The notes beneath the pieces were generated by a model. The model saw nothing but the letters and a program-made list of their open reading frames with translations, was not told the origin of the DNA and did no database searches. The translations under genes and the position numbers were made by a program. A stretch of DNA of 55,507 bases from Patescibacteria group bacterium (lineage in GTDB: Bacteria > Patescibacteriota > WWE3 > 0-14-0-20-40-13), in NCBI GenBank assembly GCA_018896215.1, contig JAHINB010000007.1, positions 1 through 55,507 on the forward strand, written 5' to 3'. Shown here in pieces: positions 36,299-45,037 of the stretch (the stretch's first letter is position 1; every line of letters starts with the position of its first letter).

Positions 36299-38545
36299 CT
36301 AATCTCCATAATCCGATTCTTTTGTGGGAATATCATACAGAGAATATTTGTCAGAATCCTTGTCGACGACATCCTCAACCCAATGATCCACGGCATCTTG
36401 CCATTGCGGAAATTCCGCTTTAAGTTTTAAAAAAGCCCGCATTTCGGACTTGTCATCCTTTTTACAGGCATCGTTGGCAAGCTTATCATCTTTTCTGCAG
36501 ATCTCCAAAACTGTAACCCAAGGACTATATCCCTGCGGTTCCGTACCCTTAATAAAATACTCCATTCGTGGCTTTTCTAATTCCAAATAGGGCTTAAAAC
36601 CGGTGATACTTCCTACTTCCGCTCTTACAACAGTCTCGGGCTGAAAAAATTTTTCGTCCGGCAGATCTTTTAGATAATCCGATATAACTCTATTCCACAC
36701 GGGAGCCGCTCCGGTAACACCGGACGCGATCTCGTTCATTGACGACCCATCGTTATTTCCCGCCCACACTCCAACTGTAATCGAAGGTGTAAAGCCGATT
36801 GTCCAGTTATCCTTCTTGTCATTTGTGGTTCCAGTTTTTACCGCAACGGTATGTTTGGCAATATTAAGGTACGATCCATAACCAAAAACTGGAGCCCGCG
36901 CATCGTTATCCGAAAGAATATTAGAAATAATAAAAGCCACTTCTGGATCTAATACTTTTTCTGGTTCCGCGCGATGCGAAAACAAAACATTCCCTTTGTT
37001 GTCCTCAACTTTTTCTATTCCGTAGGGAAAATTATAAGTGCCACTATTGGCAAAGACCGTATAAGAGGCGGTAAGCTCGATAAGCTTAATTTCCCCACCA
37101 CCTAAAGTTAAAGCTAATCCGTAATATTTAGGATCGTAAGTTAAGGTCGATATTCCCATAGCGTTGGCAGTTTTTACCATGTTGTTAATACCCACAAGTT
37201 TTAAAACTTTTACCGCGGGAACATTTACCGACTGCGCCAAAGCGTATCTAAGCTGAATCGTACCGCGAAACACACCGTCGTAATTGCTAGGGATATACTC
37301 TTTTGCCTCCGGGTCTTCGTTAAAGTCGGTTTGAGCGTCAATTATAGGAAATGACGCTGTATACCCCATTTTTAGGGCGGTGGCGTATGTTATAGGCTTT
37401 ATGGCGGAACCAGGCTGGCGCAAAGACAAGGACACATTAACCTGACCGTCTTCTTTGGAATTAAAAAAATCCTTGGAGCCAACCATACCGATTATTTCCC
37501 CTGTTTTAGAATTTAAAGCGATGAGAGAAGCATTCCCAACTTTAAGATACGCCTCTTTGGCAACCTCATCGGTTAGAATTTCTTGAGCCTTTTCCTGAAA
37601 TTTGTAATCTAGGGTTGTAGTAACTTTTAAACCCCCCGTCTCCACCAAATCGGCGCCAAACGAATCAATTAGCTTGCTTCTCACATACATAACAAAATGG
37701 GGAGCTTTAAGCACCGCCTGACCAGAGGCAAAAACTAATTCCTTTTTTAAAGCCCCATCATAATCTTCGGAAGAAATGTATTCCCTTTCGCTCTTTGAAT
37801 TAATCCAACCCTTTTCCTTCATCAGTTTTAGCACATACTGTTGCCTTTTTATGGCAACGACGGGATTATTTATTGGGGAGTAAGTTGTTGGGCTTTGAGG
37901 AAGACCCGCAATTAGGGCAGATTCCGCTAAATCCAACTGTGACGCCGGTTTTCCAAAAAATAATTCGCTGGCAGATTCTACTCCCCAAGCAGTACTGCCA
38001 TAGGGAGCTTCGTTAAGATACATTTGCAAAATTTGATCTTTGGAGTACTTTTTTTCTATTTGCAGTGTTAGGACCAACTCTTTTACTTTGCGAACCACAG
38101 TTCTTTCGTTGGTCAAAAGAGCATTCTTAACCAGCTGTTGCGTAAGGGTAGAACCACCCTGTAACCCCCGTCTTAAAAGAATGTTTCTTGCAGCGCGAAC
38201 ATAAGCCAAAATATCAAAACCGTGATGTCTATAAAATTCAGCGTCTTCCGTAGCAAGCGTTGCCTGCACAACGTAGGAAGACACTTTGTCCAACGATACT
38301 ATAGTTCTGTTTTTTAAATTATAGACATCGTATAAAAGCACACCATTGCGATCGTATATTTTGGTGGATAATTCAATCGGTCGTTCAGTAAGCTCGTTAG
38401 GAGAGGGCAGATCTTTGCTTAAATAAGTAAAGACCACAATACCAAAAATGGATCCAACTAAAAGAAAGGTTACGAGAGAAGTAGCTATGGCAACCAGTCG
38501 GGTAGATTCCAACTTTTTAATGGGCCTTTTTATTACCTTTTTCAT
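36299..38545 (-). CDS. Penicillin-binding protein 1A (transglycosylase/transpeptidase)
   Basis: 748 aa class A PBP. One N-terminal membrane anchor (about 15-40). GT51 transglycosylase: ATEDAEFYRHHGFD with the catalytic Glu, RGLQGGSTLTQQLVKNALL and KKYSKDQILQMYLNE. Transpeptidase: SLRQPGSAIKPITYATAL with the active Ser in SAIK, SVN in YALAQSVNVPA, and KTGTTNDKKDNW. The enzyme polymerises and cross-links peptidoglycan at the outer face of the membrane. The C-terminal 100 residues are a charged tail. Monocistronic, convergent with pheT. Confidence 0.96.
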   Translation of the reverse strand: MKKVIKRPIKKLESTRLVAIATSLVTFLLVGSIFGIVVFTYLSKDLPSPNELTERPIELSTKIYDRNGVLLYDVYNLKNRTIVSLDKVSSYVVQATLATEDAEFYRHHGFDILAYVRAARNILLRRGLQGGSTLTQQLVKNALLTNERTVVRKVKELVLTLQIEKKYSKDQILQMYLNEAPYGSTAWGVESASELFFGKPASQLDLAESALIAGLPQSPTTYSPINNPVVAIKRQQYVLKLMKEKGWINSKSEREYISSEDYDGALKKELVFASGQAVLKAPHFVMYVRSKLIDSFGADLVETGGLKVTTTLDYKFQEKAQEILTDEVAKEAYLKVGNASLIALNSKTGEIIGMVGSKDFFNSKEDGQVNVSLSLRQPGSAIKPITYATALKMGYTASFPIIDAQTDFNEDPEAKEYIPSNYDGVFRGTIQLRYALAQSVNVPAVKVLKLVGINNMVKTANAMGISTLTYDPKYYGLALTLGGGEIKLIELTASYTVFANSGTYNFPYGIEKVEDNKGNVLFSHRAEPEKVLDPEVAFIISNILSDNDARAPVFGYGSYLNIAKHTVAVKTGTTNDKKDNWTIGFTPSITVGVWAGNNDGSSMNEIASGVTGAAPVWNRVISDYLKDLPDEKFFQPETVVRAEVGSITGFKPYLELEKPRMEYFIKGTEPQGYSPWVTVLEICRKDDKLANDACKKDDKSEMRAFLKLKAEFPQWQDAVDHWVEDVVDKDSDKYSLYDIPTKESDYGD

Positions 38546-38584
38546 TATCTAAATGATAACACATTTGCCCGAATCAGGGTTTGA

Positions 38585-38754
38585 CGGGTGACACCCCATA
38601 AAGCATTTATAACAAGATTTAGAGAAGATCACGGGCTTGCCCGTGGATGAATCTTCCGATAAATTCCTTTTGCCGAAGGCAAAAGGCGTTATATAGTACC
38701 ACGCGCTTGCGCCTTGCGCGTGGGAATCTATATTCTGTATCGGGGTGTCACCCG
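38585..38754. repeat. Compound palindrome island
   Basis: The outer arms CGGGTGACACCCC (38585-38597) and GGGGTGTCACCCG (38742-38754) are exact complements 144 nt apart. They enclose CACGGGC-TT-GCCCGTG (38630-38645), CCTTTTGCC-GAA-GGCAAAAGG (38666-38686) and CCACGCGC/GCGCGTGG (38699-38723). The segment has no coding potential. It occupies the upstream region of the PBP gene and of brnT and could fold as a multi-branched RNA or be a stack of inserted elements. Confidence 0.75.
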
Positions 38755-38873
38755 ATAATATTTATCTCTAGATATTAACCACAAATTGGCATTTAGTATT
38801 TTCAAAACCATAACAGTCGGTATATATCAATAGTCATTGACTTGTAAAATACTGTATTGTATAGTAATGCACA

Positions 38874-39197
38874 ATGAGCATTAGGTTTTTGGATAAAATC
38901 GCTTATGAATTTGATTGGGATGAAGGTAATTCCGATAAGAATTTTCTAAAGCGCGGAATTTCTTGCAGTGAGTGTGAAGAGGTGTTTTTTAATGTCCCAG
39001 TTTTGTTTTTTTACGATAAAACACACTCACAAACGGAAGATAGATTTATTGCTTTAGGAACGACTGGAACAACATTAAATTTATTTATATCTTTTACAAT
39101 AAGAAAAGAAAAGTTAAGAGTTATCTCTGCAAGAATTCAAAGCAAAAAAGAAAGGAGGATATTTTATGAAGAAACAAAACAAGATTCCAAAATTTAA
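38874..39197 (+). CDS. brnT: BrnT-family toxin (type II toxin-antitoxin)
   Basis: 107 aa. BrnT landmarks in order: YEFDWDEGNSDKNFLKRGIS, CSECEEVFFNVPVLFFYDKT, EDRFIALGTTGTTLNLFISF and IRVISAR-like LRVISARIQSKKERRIFYEE. BrnT is an RNase-fold ribonuclease toxin bound by BrnA. The gene comes before the antitoxin gene and overlaps it by 32 nt, the normal BrnT/BrnA arrangement. Confidence 0.9.
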   Translation: MSIRFLDKIAYEFDWDEGNSDKNFLKRGISCSECEEVFFNVPVLFFYDKTHSQTEDRFIALGTTGTTLNLFISFTIRKEKLRVISARIQSKKERRIFYEETKQDSKI

Positions 39198-39453
39198 ATC
39201 CGAAGAAAACGAAAGAAACTTTTGGGACAAAAACGACTTTGCCAATTTTAAGGAAAGTTTTGAAAGAGTTAGCCTAGATTTATCAAATCTTAAACCATCA
39301 ACTAAACCGGTAACTGTTAGACTTTCTAAACCGCTACTTTATAATCTTAAAGTGATGGCAAACAAAAGGGATGTTCCTTATCAATCGCTAATGAAGGTTT
39401 TTTTGGAAGAAAAGGTGCACGAGGAACTTAATACAAAAGTACGAGGAGCATAA
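39166..39453 (+). CDS. brnA: BrnA/CopG-family antitoxin
   Basis: 95 aa. N-terminal toxin-neutralising segment (PKFKSEENERNFWDKNDFAN) and a C-terminal ribbon-helix-helix: KPVTVRLSKPLLYNLKVMAN, then DVPYQSLMKVFLEEKVHEEL. AAAGGAGGAT just before the ATG is a strong ribosome site, giving the antitoxin its own efficient start inside the toxin gene. RHH antitoxins of this kind repress their own promoter; 38755-38873 would hold the operator. Confidence 0.88.
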   Translation: MKKQNKIPKFKSEENERNFWDKNDFANFKESFERVSLDLSNLKPSTKPVTVRLSKPLLYNLKVMANKRDVPYQSLMKVFLEEKVHEELNTKVRGA

Positions 39454-39473
39454 CTGTTTAAAAAATCTCGGTG

Positions 39474-39502
39474 TTGACGACTGCCTTATAGTGGGGTAAA
39501 GT
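39474..39502 (+). promoter_or_regulatory. Probable sigma70-type promoter upstream of a leader ORF
   Basis: TTGACG (39474-39479), a 17-nt spacer, then TAAAGT (39497-39502). Transcription would start near 39508-39510, directly at the ATG of the leader ORF. It lies just downstream of brnA. Confidence 0.55.
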
Positions 39503-39510
39503 ACTAGAGT

Positions 39511-39597
39511 ATGGAAAACACAAACATTAACAAAACTTATTGGTTTACCCATTATACACCAGCTAACCGCGGGTTTGTTTTTGCGTTGCTTTCATAA
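39511..39597 (+). CDS. Putative 28-aa leader peptide
   Basis: MENTNINKTYWFTHYTPANR followed by GFVFALLS. The first half is rich in aromatic and Thr codons (Y-W-F-T-H-Y-T). The ORF runs exactly through segment A of the alternative RNA hairpins below and stops before segment B, as leader ORFs of attenuators do. There is no Shine-Dalgarno; the promoter position would make it leaderless. Chance is possible, but the combination of promoter, ORF and mutually exclusive hairpins is suggestive. Confidence 0.45.
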   Translation: MENTNINKTYWFTHYTPANRGFVFALLS

Positions 39598-39634
39598 ATA
39601 TTAAGAAACGATAAGTAAAAACACAAAACCCGCG
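39568..39634 (+). promoter_or_regulatory. Candidate antiterminator hairpin (segments A and B)
   Basis: A (39568-39582) CGCGGGTTTGTTTTT pairs with B (39617-39634) AAAAACACAAAACCCGCG: nine contiguous pairs (CGCGGGTTT with AAACCCGCG), then a bulge and more A-T pairs. B is also the left arm of the terminator that follows, so the two structures exclude one another. A lies inside the leader ORF. Confidence 0.5.
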
Positions 39635-39648
39635 AAAGCGGGTTTTTT
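39625..39648 (+). terminator. Intrinsic terminator
   Basis: AAAACCCGC-GAAA-GCGGGTTTT, a 9-bp stem with a GAAA tetraloop, ending in a run of six T. It is the clearest rho-independent terminator in the window. It ends 33 nt before the downstream metallopeptidase-like gene, so it can attenuate that gene or simply end the brnTA/leader transcript. Confidence 0.85.
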
Positions 39649-39681
39649 CTTTTTGGGTCAATATTATTAAGCTCTAGTTTA

Positions 39682-40629
39682 ATGTACAAAAAATATATGA
39701 AAAACGAAAAACCAAAAGTTAGGGTAGCAAAAATAAATCTTGGAACAATAGAATTAAATGTTCCAATTATAGAAATAGGAAGCGGGTCAAAAACCGTTGG
39801 CGTTGTTATTGGTATACACGGGGTAGAAACTGGGGGGCTACTTGTCCTCAAGAGAATTTTAGAATCGCAAAACGCACTTAAAAACAAGCTAAAGATTGTG
39901 GCTTTGGCAAATCCATCTGGAAGCCTTCTTGGCAGTCGTTTTAATAGTCTTGATTTGCCGGTTGATATTAAAGACCCCAACAGGAGTTTTCCAGGAAACG
40001 CTAATGGTACGATTCAGGAGAGATTGAACAATCTATTATTAGAGGAGCTTAAAACCTGCAGTCTTGTTTTAGATATACACAATTTCTCAAATACTGGAAA
40101 ACCGTACCCACTACTTATCGAACGAGAGATAAAAAGCGAAGTGGACAGGGTGTCAGAAAAATTTGTGGTCAACATGGGATTTACAACTACATATATCGTT
40201 GACTCAAAAGAATCGATTAAAAGAGGTTTTCTGGGAACCATAGGGCAGGTTCTTCTTGGAAAAAACATCGCCTATGCGTGTATCGAAATGCCTTTTCCCG
40301 ACATAATAAAGGAATCGGACATAGATTCTCTTTCGAAGGGGGTTATAAATGCAACAAATTATTTAGACCTAAGTAAAGATCGGAGGAAAGTGGGACTCAA
40401 AAAGATAAAGACTAATCTTGTTCGAAGCGATATCTGCGGAATTTTTACACCTACCAAAACTCCGCAAGAAAAAATCGCAAAAGGAGAAAAGGTTGGAGAG
40501 ATTTTTGACCCCTACACACTTAAAACAATAGATGTAAAAAGTGAATTTAAAGGAAAACTTTGGGTTGTAAAGCGACAGGGTTTTGTAAGGGTTGGAGAGT
40601 TCCTGTACGAAGTGGCGTACAAAATTTAG
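39682..40629 (+). CDS. Succinylglutamate desuccinylase/aspartoacylase-like protein (M14 fold)
   Basis: 315 aa. GIHGVETGGLLVLKRIL has the zinc-binding H-x-x-E, SLDLPVDIKDPNRSFPGNAN the substrate-binding D-x-N-R, and LVLDIHNFSNTG the third zinc His. These match the AstE/AspA branch of the carboxypeptidase A fold. The C-terminal 90 residues (GIFTPTKTPQEKIAKGEKVG, then LYEVAYKI) form a lipoyl-like beta barrel often present in the group. The acyl amino acid or peptide substrate is unknown. Start at 39682; an ATG five codons later is possible. A candidate attenuator precedes it. Confidence 0.85.
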   Translation: MYKKYMKNEKPKVRVAKINLGTIELNVPIIEIGSGSKTVGVVIGIHGVETGGLLVLKRILESQNALKNKLKIVALANPSGSLLGSRFNSLDLPVDIKDPNRSFPGNANGTIQERLNNLLLEELKTCSLVLDIHNFSNTGKPYPLLIEREIKSEVDRVSEKFVVNMGFTTTYIVDSKESIKRGFLGTIGQVLLGKNIAYACIEMPFPDIIKESDIDSLSKGVINATNYLDLSKDRRKVGLKKIKTNLVRSDICGIFTPTKTPQEKIAKGEKVGEIFDPYTLKTIDVKSEFKGKLWVVKRQGFVRVGEFLYEVAYKI

Positions 40630-40646
40630 CTTGCAACACCGATTTC

Positions 40647-40677
40647 AAGAGTCGAGTCCAAATCTATATCGACTCTT
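40647..40677. repeat. Hairpin upstream of the glycosyltransferase island
   Basis: AAGAGTCGA/TCGACTCTT, a 9-bp stem with a 13-nt loop, between the AstE-like gene and the GC-rich island. It may end the AstE-like transcript or belong to the leader of the next gene. Confidence 0.5.
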
Positions 40678-40722
40678 AATATGGGTCTTGCTAAGACTCA
40701 AATCTAGCCAAGGAGAGATACC

Positions 40723-41892
40723 ATGAGAACCTTAAAAATTGTTGTTGTTTCGAAGTGCCTACCGTATCTTGCAGGACCCGCTGTTTTTGCCTTCGAAGAA
40801 GCAAAAGCTTTGGCTCAAATGGGACACGATGTACATTTCGTCACCTATAAGAGCTACCCACATGGAACCACGATCCCAGACCTCGATCCAGCTGTTTTGA
40901 GGAATTCCGGAATCATGTTCCATTTGGTACAAGAACCGATATCGAACAAGGTGATTGGCTCGCAAATCGCAATCGCCATGCTCTCCGAAGTTCTGAACAT
41001 TGCATGGTCCTCATCTCAAAAACCCGATTTTCTGCGGGCGCACTATGCCATGCCACACGGCTTGATCGCGGTAACAGCAGGAAAACTCCTAGGGATTCCC
41101 TCTGTTGTATCGCTTCAAGGAAGCGATGTTGCAACTCTGGCCAAGATGGATGGGTTCCGAGAAGCAAGTATCGCGGTTTTCCAGCACGCCGATCTTCTTA
41201 CCCCTGTTGCGCAAGTTCTATACGAGCAAGTTGACGAACTTACGCAAGGAAGACACTCCAACATGTTGGTGATGCCCTCTCCGGTTGACACGGAAAGATT
41301 TCACCCAGAAGCGAGTCTATCAATCCCCAATGGCGTGAGAATCATCTATACTGGTCGTTTGCATGACATTAAGGCTATAGATGTGCTGATCTGTGGATTC
41401 GGAATTGCTCAAAGGCGGGTGAATAATCTTCCAATGAGTCTGACAGTCGCTGGTGTTGGTCCGGAACTCCCAAACCTAAAGCAACTTGCTAAAAAGCTTG
41501 GGTTGGAGGGAAGTATCATGTTTGTCGAAGGAATTTACGCAGGTTTGCCAGAACTATACAGAAATCACAATGTCTTTGCCACAGCATCCCAATCAACAGA
41601 AGAAGGAATGCCCTTCTCGGTTGTTGAAGCTCTGGCTTCGGGACTTGCGGTTGTTGCAACACCGGTCGGGGATATCCCCAAACACCTCAAACAGTGGGAG
41701 AATTGTCTCTATGCAAAGCTCAAGGACCCAGACTCGTTGGCAAAAGCCTTCGTAACTCTTGCCGAAAAGCCTGATCTGATGGCTAAAATAGGGACGAGAA
41801 ACCGGACGCTTGCGGAACAAAAGTTCTCCATGAAAGAACATTGCGAAAGACTCATCCGTTTGATCATCGCACCATATGTATCTTCATACTAG
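40723..41892 (+). CDS. Glycosyltransferase family 4 (GT-B)
   Basis: 389 aa. N-half: IVVVSKCLPYLAGPAVFAFE, LRAHYAMPHGLIAVTAGKLL, VVSLQGSDVATLA. C-half: IIYTGRLHDIKAIDVLICGF, VAGVGPELPNLKQL and the donor-site E-x7-E in STEEGMPFSVVEALASGLAV. A retaining transferase acting on the cytoplasmic face of the membrane in glycan or glycolipid assembly. A good ribosome site (AAGGAGAG) precedes the ATG. The DNA is GC-richer than the surroundings (55% in 41041-41100 against 38% in 43441-43500) and codon choice differs, indicating recent acquisition. Confidence 0.92.
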   Translation: MRTLKIVVVSKCLPYLAGPAVFAFEEAKALAQMGHDVHFVTYKSYPHGTTIPDLDPAVLRNSGIMFHLVQEPISNKVIGSQIAIAMLSEVLNIAWSSSQKPDFLRAHYAMPHGLIAVTAGKLLGIPSVVSLQGSDVATLAKMDGFREASIAVFQHADLLTPVAQVLYEQVDELTQGRHSNMLVMPSPVDTERFHPEASLSIPNGVRIIYTGRLHDIKAIDVLICGFGIAQRRVNNLPMSLTVAGVGPELPNLKQLAKKLGLEGSIMFVEGIYAGLPELYRNHNVFATASQSTEEGMPFSVVEALASGLAVVATPVGDIPKHLKQWENCLYAKLKDPDSLAKAFVTLAEKPDLMAKIGTRNRTLAEQKFSMKEHCERLIRLIIAPYVSSY

Positions 41893-41911: not shown

Positions 41912-43285
41912 ATGAAAGCACAAAGACGGCAACTTCTGGAATCCGTGACCATAGGGGATGCTGAATACCCTCTCAACTACGGATCAAACGCTGAGGATAA
42001 GCAGGTGATGCCTTGCCTTACCCTCCAGGAGGAAGTGTACAGGAGGCTTTGCGGGGAACTGGAACCTGGGTTTCTTGTAAGCCCACGAGTTCCGTTCCTT
42101 CCTCACACAGGATTTTCTAGCCTTGCGAATCGTGCCGTGGCACTATCGCAAATCTATCAGATCCTCTTCCAAGACCAAGAGTTGCGACACAGGGCACTCC
42201 CCCCATGGCTTCACAAAGTGCCATCCGCTAATGAATTCGCGCTCGCGGGTCTAGCGTTTGACTTCTTCGTCGGTCGCAATTTGGAGAGCCCCAAGCTCTT
42301 GGAATGTGCAGCTTACGGTCCCGATATGGTTATGTCCGCAGTAATGCTGGACACAATCCTCGGCACCAGATCATACACGACAACCCTCATGGCTTGGTGG
42401 AAACATCTTGTGGAGGGCAGGCTTGCGAGCAAAATTGTTTTCCCTCCAGCGATGCTGTTCGAAGGAACCAATATACTCGCGTGGTGGCAGTCGCTAGTAA
42501 AACCCTTGATGGTTGGGAAGCGGTTGCACTTTGTTACCTCGATTGGTGAACTAAACCACACTCGAGACGGGGAGCATCTGTTCCAGATGAATTTCCTTCG
42601 GGAAGTTGGGGTAGAAGCAACATCTGGTTCTGCTGAGGAAGTCCCCAACTCGGCAGAAACTGTGTATCTTCGGTTTTCCTTGATGTACCCACAAGGCTGG
42701 AACACAATCAAGGGAACGCACCTTTGGAAGAGAGTTCTTGCTGGGGATGTAAGACTAATCCCACCAATAGGAAACTCCTTCGTAAGCTCGAAGGTAGTTC
42801 TCCCAGTTTTGGCGGATGCCAGCGAACTTCGTCAACGCGGTGTTCCAGAGAATCTCATCAAGGTGGCAGGGGAGGTGATGCCAGCGACATTCCTGTATCA
42901 ACGAGGGATGTATGGCTGGATAGCTCGTTCTGTAGCTCCAACAAGACCGCTCTGGCTAAAATCCGCTTGGAACTATGGCGGATTTGGAACGCGTCGTGTC
43001 TCATCGGCAGATGGACTAGCCAAAGCGCTCTATGAGATCGAAACTTACGGAGAAGGTCCGATAATCGCCCAAGAAGAAATCCCGCCTAGCTACTTGCCAG
43101 CAGATTCCGAAAGGGAAATTCCAGAGCAACGGGTGGAGGTGCGGGTGCGGGTCTTCGATCACGGAAGCGCGATAAAGGCGGTGCCACCAATACCATCAGT
43201 ACGGCTGTACGGTCCAGACGGTGGCAGGCCGCAAGTGTCAATCCTTTTGAGCAGAGATGTTCTGCCTCAACAGGAAAAGGAGTAG
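41912..43285 (+). CDS. Unrecognised protein, possible ATP-grasp-like C-terminus
   Basis: 457 aa, no family recognised for the first 330 residues (helix-rich, several Trp: MAWWKHLVEGRLASKIVFPP, ILAWWQSLVKP). Residues 340-440 carry RPLWLKSAWNYGGFGTRRVS, GPIIAQEEIPPSY and QRVEVRVRVFDHGSA, an order (Lys strand, Gly-rich loop, Q-E-x-I-P, R-V-x-V) reminiscent of ATP-grasp ligases; this is weak by-eye similarity. An AAAGGAGGAT ribosome site precedes the ATG. It follows the GT4 gene by 19 nt, shares its GC-rich composition, and ends before a strong hairpin, so the pair is one unit. Confidence 0.75.
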   Translation: MKAQRRQLLESVTIGDAEYPLNYGSNAEDKQVMPCLTLQEEVYRRLCGELEPGFLVSPRVPFLPHTGFSSLANRAVALSQIYQILFQDQELRHRALPPWLHKVPSANEFALAGLAFDFFVGRNLESPKLLECAAYGPDMVMSAVMLDTILGTRSYTTTLMAWWKHLVEGRLASKIVFPPAMLFEGTNILAWWQSLVKPLMVGKRLHFVTSIGELNHTRDGEHLFQMNFLREVGVEATSGSAEEVPNSAETVYLRFSLMYPQGWNTIKGTHLWKRVLAGDVRLIPPIGNSFVSSKVVLPVLADASELRQRGVPENLIKVAGEVMPATFLYQRGMYGWIARSVAPTRPLWLKSAWNYGGFGTRRVSSADGLAKALYEIETYGEGPIIAQEEIPPSYLPADSEREIPEQRVEVRVRVFDHGSAIKAVPPIPSVRLYGPDGGRPQVSILLSRDVLPQQEKE

Positions 43286-43954: not shown

Positions 43955-45037
43955 ATGTCAAGCATGACTCCACAAGAAAAAGTAGAGATTATCAAAAGCT
44001 TTGCGCAAGAGATTGTTTCGGAGGATGAATTGCTCAAGCTATTTGAGGAAAAAGAACATCCCGTAGCTTACGATGGCTTTGAACCCTCGGGCATTGCCCC
44101 AATTCACTTCGGCCTATTGCGAGCCATTAATGTTAAAAGACTCCTATCCTGCGACATCCACTTAAAGTTATATCTTGCCGATTACTTTGCTTACATCAAT
44201 AACAAAATTGGCGGGGATCTAGAAAAGATCAAAAGAGTGGGGGAGTACTTTGTAGAAATTTGGAAAGCGTCTGGTGTAGACACCACTAAAATTGAGATTG
44301 TCTGGGCAAGCGAGCTTATGGACTCAATTGACTACTGGGACAGGGTACTAACCGTTGCCAAATCATTAACTTTACAGCGAACCCTAAAGTCACTAACGAT
44401 TGCAGGCAGAAGTGAAAAGGACACACTTTCTACTGCCCAGCTTTTTTACCCCTCCATGCAAGTTGCTGATATTTTTGAGATGGAAATAGACATTTGCCAG
44501 CTTGGTATGGATCAACGCCGCGCTAACATGATTGCTCGAGAAGTTGCCGAAAAGCAAAATTGGAAAAAACCCATTGCCGTTCATCACCCCATGTTATTGG
44601 GACTAAAAGGGGTAAAAGAATTAGACAACCCAGAAGCAACAATGATTGCCAGCAAAATGTCTAAAAGTGATCCCACAAGTGCAATTTATATGCACGATGC
44701 AAAAGAGAAAATAGAAGCCAAAATCAGAACCGCTTTTTGTCCACCCAATCAAACTCTAGGAAATCCAATCTTTGAATACGCCAAATTGATAGTAATTCCC
44801 GTCATGGGAAATTTAAAAGTTTATCGAGAACCCAAACACGGAGGATATGTTGAGTATTTCTCGTCGCGGGAATTACAAATTGATTACGAGAATGGCAACC
44901 TGCATCCTAATGATCTAAAGTCTGCAGTCGCCTCATCGTTGGATTTTCTTATTAAACCCGTAAGAAGTCATTTTGAAAAGGATAGAAAAGCAAAAAAGCT
45001 GTATAATGAGGTAAGATCTTATCAAATTACAAGATAA
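43955..45037 (+). CDS. tyrS: Tyrosyl-tRNA synthetase, archaeal/eukaryotic-like
   Basis: 360 aa, class I core. AYDGFEPSGIAPIHFGLLRA gives the Y-x-G-F-x-P-S-G entry and the HIGH-equivalent; YPSMQVADIFEMEIDICQLG and MDQRRANMIAREVAEK are the tyrosine site of the archaeal/eukaryotic group; KMSKS is in MIASKMSKSDPTSAIYMHDA. The bacterial C-terminal S4 domain is absent. Archaeal-like TyrRS is known in scattered bacterial lineages including some CPR. A TATGAT-like box lies just upstream. Confidence 0.93.
   Translation: MSSMTPQEKVEIIKSFAQEIVSEDELLKLFEEKEHPVAYDGFEPSGIAPIHFGLLRAINVKRLLSCDIHLKLYLADYFAYINNKIGGDLEKIKRVGEYFVEIWKASGVDTTKIEIVWASELMDSIDYWDRVLTVAKSLTLQRTLKSLTIAGRSEKDTLSTAQLFYPSMQVADIFEMEIDICQLGMDQRRANMIAREVAEKQNWKKPIAVHHPMLLGLKGVKELDNPEATMIASKMSKSDPTSAIYMHDAKEKIEAKIRTAFCPPNQTLGNPIFEYAKLIVIPVMGNLKVYREPKHGGYVEYFSSRELQIDYENGNLHPNDLKSAVASSLDFLIKPVRSHFEKDRKAKKLYNEVRSYQITR

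Follow-up and report, generated by a model that had tools for sequence, protein, structure and literature searches.

Leader-peptide attenuators are known for Trp, Phe, Leu, Ile and others, and those of the trp/phe type in which the ribosome mediates the outcome, such as trpL, pheL and pheST, come from proteobacteria and Actinobacteria (PMC1262725). For tyrosine, a study of Actinobacteria reported no RNA element in that group and assigned the RNA regulation of tyrosine genes elsewhere to T-boxes (PMC1262725). The C. glutamicum AroR leader, which has Phe-Tyr-Phe before the biosynthetic gene aroF, is reported to respond to Phe but not Tyr (Neshat et al. 2014; PMC11802643). In mycobacteria, leaderless short poly-Cys ORFs act as attenuators in which elongation speed reports the amino acid, and it is translation of the downstream genes that they are described as regulating (Canestrari et al. 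2020; PMC9031893). The L10_leader family acts by attenuation in B. subtilis, the signal being ribosomal protein L10(L12)4 (PMC4538822).

What of the candidate phyla with reduced genomes? Literature searching on T-boxes in Patescibacteria or riboswitches in Katanobacteria yielded nothing relevant. The locus considered here is in a Patescibacteria group bacterium of the WWE3 lineage (assembly GCA_018896215.1), whose 772-kb genome (772,008 bases with all contigs joined; G000 below) carries it on contig C7 (JAHINB010000007.1), of which positions 1 to 55,507, the whole stretch of DNA analysed, are termed the window. Positions 39474-39655 are, in our judgement, probably a ribosome-mediated transcription attenuator before an aspA-like gene with Tyr as the most likely signal, though there is appreciable room for other readings.

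With the trp/phe type this WWE3 leader shares a leader ORF with control codons, an antiterminator that overlaps the ORF, a terminator that shares an arm with it, a T tract and a downstream gene related to amino acids. It differs in having no 1:2 hairpin, in having read-through as the default when no ribosome is present, in having a mixed Tyr/Trp/Phe run rather than a pure repeat, and in its host, a member of candidate phylum WWE3. Like AroR, it has aromatic codons including Tyr that are proposed to control downstream transcription; the effector and the biosynthetic target of AroR set the two apart. Like the mycobacterial poly-Cys ORFs, it would be a leaderless regulatory short ORF whose speed of elongation reports an amino acid, but it has an intrinsic terminator. 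The Tyr T-boxes (RF00230) that precede aspA-type genes in G026, G032 and G044 and tyrS in G014 share with the leader the type of target gene and the sensing of Tyr-tRNA charging proposed for it; however, they bind tRNA directly, while the leader is proposed to be translated and there is no T-box sequence in the window. The rplJL (L10) leader RF00557 of the same genome likewise sets an antiterminator against a terminator, with a protein as its signal in place of the proposed speed of translation.

The locus and its leader ORF

The plus strand order is brnT, brnA, leader region, aspA-like gene, GT4 glycosyltransferase, a 457-aa protein, NYN-domain protein and tyrS. brnT (38874-39197; PF04365) and the brnA/CopG antitoxin gene (39166-39453; PF12441) form an independent unit 5′ of the leader and reading into it. 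Between a penicillin-binding protein gene and brnT, at 38570-38770, there are a number of short inverted repeats of high GC content (TATCGGGGTGTCACCCGATA at 38738-38757 is one of them), and the 457-aa protein, encoded at 41912-43285 between the GT4 and NYN-domain genes, has no Pfam match. The gene for tyrosyl-tRNA synthetase, tyrS (43955-45037, plus strand; NF006330, E 5e-107), is downstream of aspA, which does not imply its co-transcription with the leader.

The aspA/astE-like gene (39682-40629, plus strand), which is the regulated gene in the proposal, encodes a zinc amidohydrolase of Pfam PF24827 AstE_AspA_cat (E 1.7e-11; 44.5 bits, cut-off 25). In the AspA alignment HG-x-E, DxNRxFPG, DxH and a late E are kept, with H46, E49, N100-R101, H133 and E202 invariant; no NCBIfam equivalog cut-off is reached. 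The enzyme may serve to free amino acids from acylated derivatives. Before its ATG there is no evident Shine-Dalgarno sequence, and a TATTAT, one mismatch from the consensus, is 14 nt 5′ of it.

The first-pass annotation had reported TTGACG-17-TAAAGT and a 28-codon ORF with the run Y-W-F-T-H-Y-T, and both are there. In this promoter-like site TTGACG is at 39474-39479 and, after a 17-nt spacer, TAAAGT at 39497-39502 (plus strand). The latter is weak, with two mismatches to TATAAT, and such sites are at chance level: eight matches of this kind, at nine of 12 positions, were found in 3.5 kb against 7.8 expected. The leader ORF, MENTNINKTYWFTHYTPANRGFVFALLS, runs from the ATG at 39511 to the TAA at 39597 (plus strand; 28 aa), with control codons Y10 W11 F12 T13 H14 Y15 T16 at 39538-39558 and Thr codons at 4, 9, 13 and 16. 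Of 28-aa stretches taken from long ORFs 1.0%, and of small ORFs 1.5%, contain an eight-residue segment with at least two Tyr, at least one Trp and at least four aromatics.

Could an ORF beginning only 8 nt after a −10 element be translated? Among 315 first-in-unit genes of G000 the distance from a TATAAT-like hexamer to the ATG has a sharp maximum at 6-9 nt (37, 15, 16 and 15 genes, compared with about three at most other spacings), and none with that spacing also has a Shine-Dalgarno motif, from which leaderless mRNAs appear to be widespread in this WWE3-type genome. The leader itself is absent from the tally on account of the two mismatches in its −10, but its spacing of 8 nt falls inside the peak and is also that of brnT, where TATAGT precedes the ATG by 8 nt. 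The leader peptide is probably translated leaderless.

Two mutually exclusive hairpins

Segment A, CGCGGGTTT (39568-39576, plus strand), and B (39626-39634) are complementary along 9 nt. Of the nine, the best fold takes eight (39568-39575 with 39627-39634) and extends into an antiterminator hairpin of 28 pairs, at 39568-39634 with arms 39568-39597 and 39601-39634 (plus strand), whose free energy of -25.1 kcal/mol (z -5.58) was equalled by none of 200 shuffles. Its 5′ arm overlaps the leader ORF and its apex is the leader stop codon. The intrinsic terminator B:C occupies 39625-39655 (plus strand): a 9-bp hairpin at 39625-39646, with arms 39625-39633 and 39638-39646 and a GAAA loop, is followed by a T-rich tract, at -14.1 kcal/mol (z -4.65). 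Since 39627-39633 is common to both, the two hairpins exclude each other. Thus the A-B complementarity over nine bases, the strength of the terminator and its incompatibility with A:B, as claimed from the sequence earlier, are all borne out.

When the full-length RNA is folded without a ribosome A:B is preferred, and so the default is read-through, quite a contrast to trp. Nor did folding of the leader give a stable 1:2 protector or pause hairpin upstream that would sequester A, and the leader is therefore not a classical three-hairpin trp attenuator; that hairpin is not essential to the attenuation mechanism.

How unusual is such a terminator with its competitor? On both strands of the whole genome 41 strong terminators were listed (about 40 of them distinct, as one entry is the same hairpin read from the opposite strand), and each was ranked by how well an upstream complement competes with it. 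First of the 41 comes the leader terminator, with eight contiguous pairs of which five are G-C (dinucleotide-shuffle p about 0.01), and within the same set it also has the strongest antiterminator-type fold engaging a terminator arm. The only other terminator with a shuffle p of about 0.01 stands before rplJ and is part of an Rfam L10_leader (RF00557; 48.5 bits against a cut-off of 44; L182:4693-4834, minus strand), so that the ranking recovers a known attenuator and has its positive control. G000 thereby carries at least one established attenuator type. A terminator on C8 (plus strand) with an upstream competitor proved to be two adjoining similar terminator-like repeats and not an attenuator.

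Ribosome position and the proposed switch

How would the leader operate? Transcription from TTGACG-17-TAAAGT would begin on the leader ATG or only a few bases away from it, and translation would be leaderless. With Tyr-tRNA charged (possibly also that for Trp or Phe) the ribosome would pass codon 15 and cover or melt A, B would then pair with C, and RNA polymerase would stop at 39647-39655. With Tyr-tRNA scarce it would stall on the Tyr/Trp/Phe codons 10-12, and probably at 15, leaving A free, and the long A:B hairpin would capture B and allow aspA to be transcribed.

The dependence on codon position was calculated by blocking a ribosome footprint of four alternative sizes in the partition function and moving the A-site along the leader codons. 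A:B dominates with the A-site at codons 8-12 for all four sizes, and at codon 13 for three of them; codons 14-16 give a mixture of A:B and B:C; and B:C dominates with the ribosome at codons 17-26. Stalls at Tyr10, Trp11 or Phe12 are thus robustly predicted to give antitermination, while the modelled outcome at Tyr15 is marginal and dependent on the footprint assumed. With the ribosome at the stop codon, the equilibrium favours A:B (0.59-0.87), and hence termination would have to be settled kinetically or while the ribosome stands at roughly codons 16-27, a genuine weak point of the attenuator reading.

Relatives at the locus

Among 45 genomes of the class only G010, which belongs to another family of it, has leader DNA beyond chance-length matches; a match in L016 was inspected and is unrelated. 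In G010 the −35 is kept as TTGACA and is followed by the leader start MGNISINKTYWF, 5′ of tyrS. Over these 36 nt 32 are identical (89%), whereas tyrS is 73.5% and the aspA remnant about 73% identical, and three of the four differences are non-synonymous. A deletion at the common TATTGGT joins the leader start to what is left of the same aspA gene; then comes a second truncation, and tyrS is the next gene. As the hairpins of A, B and C and the terminator are lost, G010 is silent on hairpin conservation. Also, as the junction is TATTGGT, the last leader bases in common may derive from the aspA side of the deletion, and the conservation of Tyr-Trp is not independent evidence. In G010 the place of BrnT/BrnA is taken by a HepT/MNT-like toxin-antitoxin pair (L011:1571-2406, minus strand), so that different toxin-antitoxin modules are beside the same leader.

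The leader is absent from a genome of the same family (G001) and from one of the G010 genus (G004). The element would thus appear to be older than the split of the families of G000 and G010, or shared between them, and often lost. Only one intact copy of leader, hairpins and aspA exists in the 45 genomes. Scans of genome and viral contigs gave no close relative of AspA, the best full-length match being about 29% identical, and consequently there is no covariation set for A, B and C; in a phylum sample of 380 genomes six matches reach E <= 1e-25.

AspA homologues behind tyrosine T-boxes

In three genomes of family f10 (G026, G032 and G044) AspA-type homologues, only 27-29% identical to that of G000 but with catalytic motifs kept, stand 3′ of T-boxes (RF00230; 98.8-112.4 bits against the Rfam cut-off of 93). 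In all three the specifier columns are UAC (Tyr). The same columns are UAC before a tyrS (L139), CGC before argS (L024) and ACC before thrS (L032); with the register fixed in this way, the T-boxes before the f10 aspA genes read as Tyr-specific. In G014 it is tyrS that a Tyr T-box precedes. Further T-boxes with a UAC specifier are in L026 (1501-1780), L028 (1501-1765) and L030 (1501-1769), the proteins behind the first two having no Pfam match.

In L002, L003 and L005 a YbdK/GCS2-type carboxylate-amine ligase gene is next after the aspA-like gene and an EamA transporter gene is 5′ of the T-box. Together, UAC T-box, aspA-like gene, YbdK/GCS2-type ligase and EamA transporter make up a putative WWE3 cluster for tyrosine-linked salvage or conjugates.

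No T-box was found at AspA homologues outside f10 (L055, L056, L058, L101, L115, L130), nor, by motif only, at L199-L201, nor, at the sensitivity of that search, in G000, G001, G004 and G010. The likeness of ACCGCGGG to the T-box core had suggested one in the window, but neither a match to the RF00230 covariance model nor an antiterminator bulge of the GGTGG type turned up at 38500-41000. Because two independent devices, leader and T-box, would tie the aspA family to Tyr-tRNA, Tyr is favoured as the signal although Thr codons are more numerous. The logic of a trp/thr-type attenuator, proposed in the first-pass annotation, gains in this way from the geometry, from the ribosome masking and from the Tyr T-boxes before homologues, while its Thr component gives way to Tyr as the likelier effector.

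Alternative readings

The main rival is a plain one: the hairpin may merely terminate brnTA and stray transcripts, with aspA read from its own downstream promoter and the ORF and segment A accidental. brnA ends at 39453 on the same strand, 172 nt before the terminator, and the score of the promoter-like site does not rise above chance. The TATTAT 14 nt before the aspA ATG would supply the downstream promoter, but it lacks a recognisable −35 and its spacing falls outside the leaderless peak. Moreover, a hairpin of 28 pairs that captures the terminator arm does not readily arise by chance (z -5.6, rank 1 of 41). G010, too, keeps the leader start and −35 yet has no brnTA there, and what it kept (the promoter region and ORF start) and what it lost (the terminator and aspA) are the opposite of what a mere brnTA terminator predicts. 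This explanation is unlikely, though it deserves to be taken seriously.

If the leader is a translated attenuator, is Tyr necessarily its signal? Thr, Trp or Phe could take its place, or a general stalling of ribosomes by antibiotics of the sort reported for bmrCD of B. subtilis (PMC4191407). There are the four Thr codons, Trp11 and Phe12 adjoin Tyr10, and masking gives antitermination for a stall anywhere in codons 8-13. The homologous genes under UAC T-boxes and the tyrS downstream of leader and aspA nevertheless argue for Tyr, and aspA is not a known resistance gene, so that a different signal is rather improbable, more so than a simple terminator. Least probable by a good distance is that A:B is an RNA switch bound by a protein or ligand, with translation of the ORF irrelevant. 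The L10 leader of the same genome does employ competing hairpins and, with A:B as default fold, a protein or ligand would have to disrupt it; however, every Rfam match within the leader stays below the cut-off of its family, and the ORF, its aromatic run and their placement relative to A suit translation. The weak best Rfam matches there, Trp_leader (24.7 bits, cut-off 41) and Phe_leader (24.8 bits, cut-off 55), are families of leader-peptide attenuators and, being far below cut-off, do not amount to membership. Ribosome-mediated attenuation with Tyr as signal remains the preferred reading.

Significance

The general type of attenuator is already known; what is new is the lineage, the probable response to Tyr and the exchange of sensors before homologous genes. 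If the reading is true, ribosome-mediated transcription attenuation reaches a candidate-phyla lineage of reduced genomes, for which a limited literature search found no instance, and the leader, as a candidate Tyr-responsive leader peptide, is a rarity. It would also exemplify the exchange of RNA sensors ahead of a single target gene. Tentatively, and with rather less assurance than for the attenuator itself, we suggest that in a single class of very small bacteria the same Tyr-linked amidohydrolase is under two unrelated sensors of tRNA charging, a T-box in one family and a Tyr-responsive leaderless attenuator in another, which would mark AspA as a tyrosine-salvage enzyme. Its regulation would then be a clue to the function of the AspA-like hydrolase, which in the T-box genomes has the YbdK-type ligase and EamA transporter beside it: Tyr T-boxes and leader would together point to a role for it in obtaining tyrosine.
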